Source: a virus. From it: a DNA stretch of 51,513 nucleotides. The notes beneath the pieces were generated by a model that saw nothing but the letters and a program-made list of their open reading frames with translations, searched no databases and was not told the DNA's origin. The position numbers were made by a program, and so were the translations under genes. This document shows positions 34,395 through 34,677 of the stretch, piece by piece. Positions within the stretch are counted from its first letter, which is position 1, and every line of letters begins with the position of its first letter. Where the stretch lies: the IMG/VR virus record IMGVR_UViG_3300037318_000051, positions 1 through 51,513 of that record; one strand, 5' to 3'.

Positions 34395-34403
34395 TGCTAT
34401 AAT
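34395..34403 (+). promoter_or_regulatory. Extended -10 promoter before tRNA and capsid genes
   Basis: TGCTATAAT within GTGTGCTATAATACGG, with no clear -35 box. The start would fall near 34410, about 30 bases before the tRNA. A small hairpin GGCGC/GCGCC (34420-34435) lies in between and could guide 5' processing. Confidence 0.65.
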
Positions 34404-34439
34404 ACGGGTATGCGCACCTGGCGCGATAATGCGCCCCAC

Positions 34440-34514
34440 AGCGGTGTGGAGCAGTGGTAGCTCGTCGGGCTCATAACCCGAAGGTCGCAGGTTCAATCCC
34501 TGCCACCGCAACCA
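34440..34514 (+). tRNA. Initiator-type tRNA-Met (anticodon CAT)
   Basis: A complete 75-base cloverleaf. The acceptor stem pairs GCGGTG with CACCGC and leaves the first position unpaired (A opposite A), a mark of bacterial initiator tRNA. The anticodon stem CGGG/CCCG around CTCATAA has the three consecutive G-C pairs typical of initiators. The D-arm GGAGCAGTGGTAGCTC and T-arm GCAGGTTCAATCCCTGC are normal, and CCA is encoded. It is probably functional. Confidence 0.93.
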
Positions 34515-34677
34515 ATATCGATATTGACGAGGCGATACCTGCCCTTTGGAGTGGTATGACAACCGGGAGAGACCGGCAAAACCAAATATCCTGAACCCAA
34601 CCCCGAAATAACAGTAGGGCAGCGGTGTTTTTCTCTATCAGGAGAAGAGCGCCGCTTTTTTGTTGTCTGGAAACCGT
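34515..34677 (+). promoter_or_regulatory. Capsid-gene leader with terminator-like hairpin
   Basis: The 163-base leader between the tRNA and the capsid polyprotein contains ACCGG/CCGG (about 34562-34575) and, at 34628-34666, a hairpin GCGGTG...CTCT...AGAG...CGCCGC followed by TTTTTT, ending 12 bases before the capsid start codon. It looks like an intrinsic terminator or attenuator, which would tune capsid expression separately from the tRNA. The ribosome site of the capsid gene is weak. Confidence 0.55.

Follow-up and report, generated by a model that had tools for sequence, protein, structure and literature searches.

An initiator tRNA gene and a conserved two-hairpin RNA in the capsid-gene leader of a probable Chloroflexota phage

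Introduction

Initiator tRNA genes have been described in phages before. In Sinorhizobium meliloti, phiLM21-like prophages carry a single tRNA-fMet (PMC12429752). Initiator-type tRNA(-Met) genes are likewise phage-borne in mycobacteriophages and Caulobacter phages. The virus record IMGVR_UViG_3300037318_000051 (hereafter the window, i.e., the whole stretch of 51,513 bases analysed) also carries a single initiator tRNA gene. It differs from these cases in its host and in belonging to unrelated phages, and a position before a head gene together with a two-hairpin RNA goes unreported in the parts of that source considered here.

The surrounding arrangement has parallels of its own. Phage morons (PMC8065619, PMC7067206) are pieces of extra late-region DNA with their own promoter and terminator. 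In the window a promoter and a terminator also lie within the late region, both conserved in relatives, and the DNA between them is discretely present or absent between relatives (L271 versus L011). Unlike in morons, promoters and terminators of the window type exist without cargo, the empty form keeping both, and the cargo is RNA only. The lambdoid pR'-short RNA-tR' unit (Stx phages, PMC8065619) similarly places a promoter, a short transcript and a terminator before the late genes. This arrangement is present in the window, where, in contrast, it precedes a head protease/capsid gene, holds a tRNA and has no Q-like gene among the open reading frames (ORFs) profiled. The putRNA of phage HK022 (PMC9378689) comprises two adjacent stem-loops (≈70 nt) near a phage transcript start and acts in cis, with antitermination mediated through the β' zinc-binding domain of RNA polymerase. 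The RNA element of the window, which we set beside putRNA by description, also has two adjacent stem-loops, but is shorter (≈55 nt), has a strict GAGAGA hexaloop and occupies an unrelated position. These three systems are the nearest mechanical parallels, and we claim membership in none of them.

In phage P1, the trnI(CAT)-ban region (L388 1540–1840, corresponding to P1 70911–71211) resembles the window in that a similar two-hairpin sequence separates a CAU tRNA from the next gene, but this sequence scores weakly with our covariance model R1 (20.9 bits), has the variant loop GAAGAG(U), and the tRNA is Ile2 rather than an initiator. The GOLLD and ROOL RNAs are found in proximity to tRNA genes. 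Like the window element they are structured non-coding RNAs of bacteria and phages (PMC12286853), although far larger, and the element has no Rfam match. Since phage initiator tRNAs are already known, what is new here is the conserved leader slot, the insertable cassette of tRNA and RNA, and the RNA element, which is more novel than the tRNA.

Results and Discussion

Genome and Likely Host

An exact 127-bp direct terminal repeat (1–127 and 51387–51513) indicates that the window is a complete genome. The phage is temperate, and its gene content includes the following:

19631–20620, tyrosine integrase
16823–18532, minus strand, sigma-70-family factor with Pfam regions 1.2, 2, 3 and 4
large terminase (Terminase_6N/6C)
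portal-like gene, head-morphogenesis gene and replication genes

The sigma-70-family factor could recognise TGTGCTATAAT promoters. The early region also includes a transposase-like gene (3214–4344, minus strand; phrog_12300 and phrog_506).

The tRNA core AGCGGTGTGGAGCAGTGGTAGCTCGTCGGGCTCATAACCC had no exact match in the genomes searched. Without its first base (bases 2–40), the core was found among genome contigs in only two Chloroflexota metagenome-assembled genomes (MAGs), Roseiflexaceae and Thermoflexus. Both copies sit after a 5S rRNA gene, and the Thermoflexus contig resembles the Roseiflexaceae one. Matches to the window tRNA were present in 143 of 158 Chloroflexia genomes, the best being 91% identical. 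Among the matches listed, the full-length host alignments start at base 2, and A1 is therefore not the host base in these. Homologs of the large terminase (TerL; 46–51% identity) occur in four Chloroflexia genomes, and a Chloroflexota genome (G349, L368) holds a CRISPR array of 42 repeats with one spacer covering the two-hairpin element. From the tRNA core in the MAGs, the 91% identity of Chloroflexia initiators, the TerL homologs and the spacer, a Chloroflexota host appears likely by indirect evidence, although not proven. The genome with the array also has a near-match in L381.

The Leader and Its Initiator tRNA

The region preceding the capsid gene contains the following features:

34162–34386, plus strand, small upstream gene (74 aa) without assignment to a known family (ORF list)
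34392–34403, plus strand, predicted extended −10 promoter GTGTGCTATAAT, the sole exact copy in the window, with the same 12-mer in L011
34440–34514, plus strand, initiator tRNA-fMet(CAU) with encoded CCA (ARAGORN tRNA-Met(cat), Rfam RF00005, identity elements)
34528–34584, plus strand, conserved two-hairpin RNA, P1 (ATACC/GGTAT) and P2 with GAGAGA hexaloop (model R1, covariation)
34621–34656, plus strand, predicted intrinsic terminator of 16 pairs followed by TTTTTG (terminator scan)
34678–37194, plus strand, head protease-capsid fusion, 838 aa (phrog_207 head maturation protease, E 2.8e-20)

Given the end of the small gene, the promoter begins directly after its stop, and with the capsid ATG at 34678 the whole leader is non-coding. 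The fusion protein is 34.5% identical over 93% to the 'putative phage capsid protein and protease' of Rctr41k; a capsid search alone with the window protein found no close relatives.

A first-pass annotation of this DNA had described a lone initiator tRNA just before the capsid gene, with an unpaired first position and a GGG/CCC anticodon stem, bracketed by an extended −10 promoter and a terminator hairpin, and this description holds. The tRNA is the only one reported by ARAGORN in the window, and its match to the Rfam tRNA model (66.0 bits, E 3.1e-12) is far beyond chance. It reads AGCGGTG.TG.GAGC.AGTGGTA.GCTC.G.TCGGG.CTCATAA.CCCGA.AGGTC.GCAGG.TTCAATC.CCTGC.CACCGCA.A.CCA. In the acceptor stem only 1:72 (A.A) is unpaired, the six other pairs being intact and followed by A73 and the encoded CCA. 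The D stem (GAGC/GCTC) contains A11:U24, and positions 27–31/39–43 (TCGGG/CCCGA), with three G-C pairs at 29–31/39–41, flank the loop CUCAUAA. A CAU anticodon in a tRNA fold, a non-Watson-Crick 1:72, A73, A11:U24 and three G-C pairs are together the sequence features of bacterial tRNA-fMet. The tRNA is 87.0–90.8% identical to Chloroflexia initiators versus 68.8–71.2% to Chloroflexia CAU elongators. We therefore reject the reading as an elongator, which the first-pass annotation had named as a possible refutation, as the tRNA has all initiator identity elements and no likeness to CAU elongators. The same annotation held that phages mostly carry elongator tRNAs. This agrees with published work (PMC10264068). 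Phage initiator tRNAs are nevertheless no rarity: 203 phage records, some of which may be host DNA, have a place covering most of the window tRNA, and a scan of IMG/VR for the tRNA core gave at least 120 matches.

The promoter GTGTGCTATAAT fits the extended −10 consensus TRTGnTATAAT. Its −35 is poor (TGTAAA, 17 nt spacing), and a strict −35/−10 scan did not report it. The terminator is the only terminator-like site that the terminator scan found within 33900–35100. Support for both signals comes from their conservation in relatives and not from scan scores, and at the equivalent place L271 has GTATGCTACAAT and L152 has TGTGCTACAAT. An alternative pairing between the tRNA acceptor and the terminator arm, both of which contain AGCGGTG by eye, was put down to chance, as the letters shared in L002 are different ones and belong to the opposite arm.

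Filled and Empty Leaders in Relatives

The TerL relative L011 (81%) has the identical GTGTGCTATAAT at the same place, followed by an RNA of ≈75 nt, a terminator and a scaffold-like gene, and its leader holds no tRNA. Promoter and terminator are thus not specific to the tRNA, and the earlier idea that they are the tRNA's own finds no support. When L271 is aligned with L011, the flanks, promoter and terminator are conserved, and the tRNA and the ≈55-nt RNA form one gap. The leader end and terminator are common to L271, L344 and L011, with the tRNA and further RNA inserted in L271 and L344.

An initiator tRNA occupies this leader slot in six contigs: the window, L271, L344, L152 (the region in L337 is identical), L121 and L002. 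The gene downstream is a fusion of protease and major capsid protein in L121 (Phage_capsid, 2e-55), a protease in L152 (phrog_1028, 1.7e-34), a protease by gene order and sequence only in L002, and scaffold-like in L271 and L344, the L344 gene having no profile match. The initiator-tRNA leader thus recurs before unrelated head genes. All six copies have A at base 1 and A, G or C, but in no case U, at base 72. The acceptor and T stems vary among the slot tRNAs yet stay paired, as expected under selection. Not all copies are obviously functional, however, since in L344 the anticodon stem of the tRNA has an A.C mismatch at 31:39 and a clear −10 is missing upstream. As L002 has the tRNA slot and lacks the two-hairpin element, tRNA and element are separable.

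Seven contigs (L011, L021, L030, L033, L034, L102 and L106) have a promoter, a short RNA and a terminator before a head gene, all without a tRNA. Strict terminators were found upstream of 14 of the 60 head-gene starts tested, where ≈2 are expected (0.146 per kb). This excess suggests that a promoter-leader-terminator arrangement is a wider habit of head genes and that the tRNA cassette has been placed into such a leader. The slot provides a repeated natural setting with an initiator tRNA in the leader of the phage's most strongly needed gene, and comparing filled (L271, L344) with empty (L011) leaders makes the purpose of phage tRNAs testable.

Several candidates fell away. The match in L019 (Bordetella phage PHB09) is an elongator-type CAU tRNA, L007 and L010 look by eye like integration-site tRNAs and were left out of the slot count, and a permuted-tmRNA match in L121 (20 bits, E 0.08) is below threshold and was treated as chance.

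The Two-Hairpin RNA Element

A common motif lies between the tRNA and the terminator of the window, L121 and L152. A pattern built from it gave 103 stretches in IMG/VR, 73 of them non-redundant. RNAalifold on an alignment of 20 sequences (A2) gave P1 with five pairs, an enclosing G-C, and P2 with five pairs and the GAGAGA hexaloop. Both-sided changes occur at four pairs, 99% of cells are paired, and the covariation score is 0.26 versus 0.07 for shuffled and at most 0.04 for slid alignments. The A2 set was hand-picked and favours P1, and the 73 unselected copies are the better test of P2. In these, pair 14–23 is G-C 38 times and C-G 35 times with no mismatches, and pair 13–24 is C-G (47), U-A (14), U-G (10) or G-C (2). 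Both are paired in 73/73 non-redundant copies and neither was forced by the search pattern; since many copies are related, the counts are of non-independent events. The covariance model R1 found one strong copy in the window (63.1 bits, E 4.9e-13, the window being among the 20 training sequences). No Rfam 15 family matched the element at E ≤ 1, permissive thresholds included.

In IMG/VR stretches as in cultured phages, the element often neighbours tRNA genes or immediately precedes ORFs. R1 copies were found within the tRNA array of Phaeobacter phage MD18 (47 bits), in Planktothrix phage Pag-Yong1 (two copies), Rhodobacter phage RcCWillis, Gordonia phage LittleMunchkin and Pseudanabaena phage Pan5. 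Erwinia phage phiEt88 has a weaker copy before tRNA-Phe, and P1 has another weaker one in the trnI(CAT)-ban interval. This covarying element without an Rfam family is thus found in phages of Chloroflexota, cyanobacteria, alphaproteobacteria and actinobacteria, with possibly a distant form in P1, and could serve phages generally as a leader signal. The 158 Chloroflexia genomes contain no exact or one-mismatch copy; with the covariance model weaker copies were seen in 14 of 400 Chloroflexota genomes, several of them probably by chance.

In 49/73 copies the start of an ORF (≥60 aa) lies within 45 nt, and in 7/73 a terminator follows within 230 nt downstream. Elsewhere, many phage copies stand directly before an ORF with neither tRNA nor terminator, so the role of the element need not be transcriptional read-through. 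We consider a broader proposal about as likely as not: that GCGAYACCUGC...GUGGURUGACAGCCSGGAGAGACSGGC represents an undescribed, widespread phage RNA family tied to phage tRNA genes and gene leaders, which would act in cis on the nascent transcript and would form, with the initiator tRNA, an interchangeable capsid-operon leader cassette moving between unrelated head modules.

Two head leaders have another conserved stretch that looks like RNA (CGTAGTTCCGAGGGTG..GGTAATGCTGGCCCGTGG..GAATATCGGA), located in L152 at about 930–1060 and in L273 upstream of the element. In L018 (8001–8305), from Pan5, there is an unannotated initiator-like tRNA gene, which contains the start of a CDS labelled omega transcriptional repressor.

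Proposed Function and Alternatives

We propose, with a probability of roughly 0.58, that the initiator tRNA of this temperate Chloroflexota phage is functional and belongs to a small insertable cassette of tRNA and two-hairpin RNA, situated between a pre-existing promoter and terminator of the head operon, where the tRNA would feed the initiator pool and the hairpins would act in cis. The tRNA and RNA are most likely a moron-like cassette inside the head-operon leader. Bacterial RNA polymerase would start at about 34410 from the extended −10 promoter, giving a leader transcript of ≈250 nt that would mostly end at the hairpin upstream of the capsid ATG. The tRNA would be released from the leader by RNase P and 3' nucleases, and with its A73, CCA, mismatched 1:72 and three G-C pairs it could be charged, formylated and bound by IF2 as is the host tRNA, thereby adding to the initiator pool during bulk capsid synthesis. 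The two-hairpin RNA would remain in the leader and most likely act in cis on the nascent transcript, where it may control the frequency of read-through into the capsid gene, or affect transcript stability.

A less probable explanation, which we still take seriously, is that the leader is primarily a control device of the lambda pR'-6S RNA-tR' kind: transcription would begin at a constitutive promoter and pass through a leader RNA to a terminator, which antitermination by RNA or protein would overcome only late, delaying the head genes until then, with the tRNA serving as a structured or processing part and playing a minor role in translation. The seven tRNA-less leaders and the terminator excess at head genes described above would fit such a device, as would the distance of the element from the terminator (22–76 nt upstream in seven loci) and its likeness to putRNA. 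However, the ORFs profiled include no antiterminator gene, either Q- or N-like, the element is absent from the tRNA-less promoter-RNA-terminator leaders searched and so cannot be a general antiterminator, and the many copies elsewhere without a nearby terminator also speak against it.

It is unlikely that the phage replaces an initiator tRNA destroyed or blocked by tRNA-targeting toxins of the host. Initiator tRNA is indeed cut by VapC-type toxins, and toxins of this kind can be countered by phage tRNAs (PMC10264068); moreover, the phage tRNA has A1.A72 where the host sequences read have C1.U72. Yet where tRNA-fMet is a VapC target, phages are reported mostly to do without a copy of their own (PMC10264068), and positions 27–43 are identical to those of initiators of the likely host class (Chloroflexia), so that a nuclease acting on the anticodon loop would cut both. 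This identity argues against the earlier suggestion of mutational resistance to anticodon nucleases, as the unchanged loop CUCAUAA does against a suggested preference for GTG/ATG starts.

Very improbable, and already largely refuted, is a functionless host tRNA remnant acquired through integration or imprecise excision: the phage has a tyrosine integrase, and an integrase or recombinase lies beside a complete fMet gene in some core-carrying IMG/VR contigs (L007 and L010 by eye; L176), but the window integrase lies 14 kb from the tRNA with no att copy beside it, no second tRNA fragment of at least 13 nt was found in the window, the same slot is filled in other head operons, and the tRNA is complete, mismatch-specific and 9% different from host initiators, without identity to the host tRNA 3' end. 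We therefore also reject an integration-site copy, the other refutation that the first-pass annotation had envisaged.

Other tRNAs in Head-Gene Leaders

Other CAU tRNAs occur in such leaders in L264 (a Chloroflexia genome), L280, L324 and L327. The L264 tRNA (13783–13866), which fills this leader slot within a prophage-like region, is odd in having a fully paired acceptor stem and C73, and L264 has two promoter-terminator units in tandem. A stretch of ≈75 nt between tRNA and element is common to L280 and L327 and absent from L324, whose tRNA is that of L327; this difference is further modularity of these leaders.
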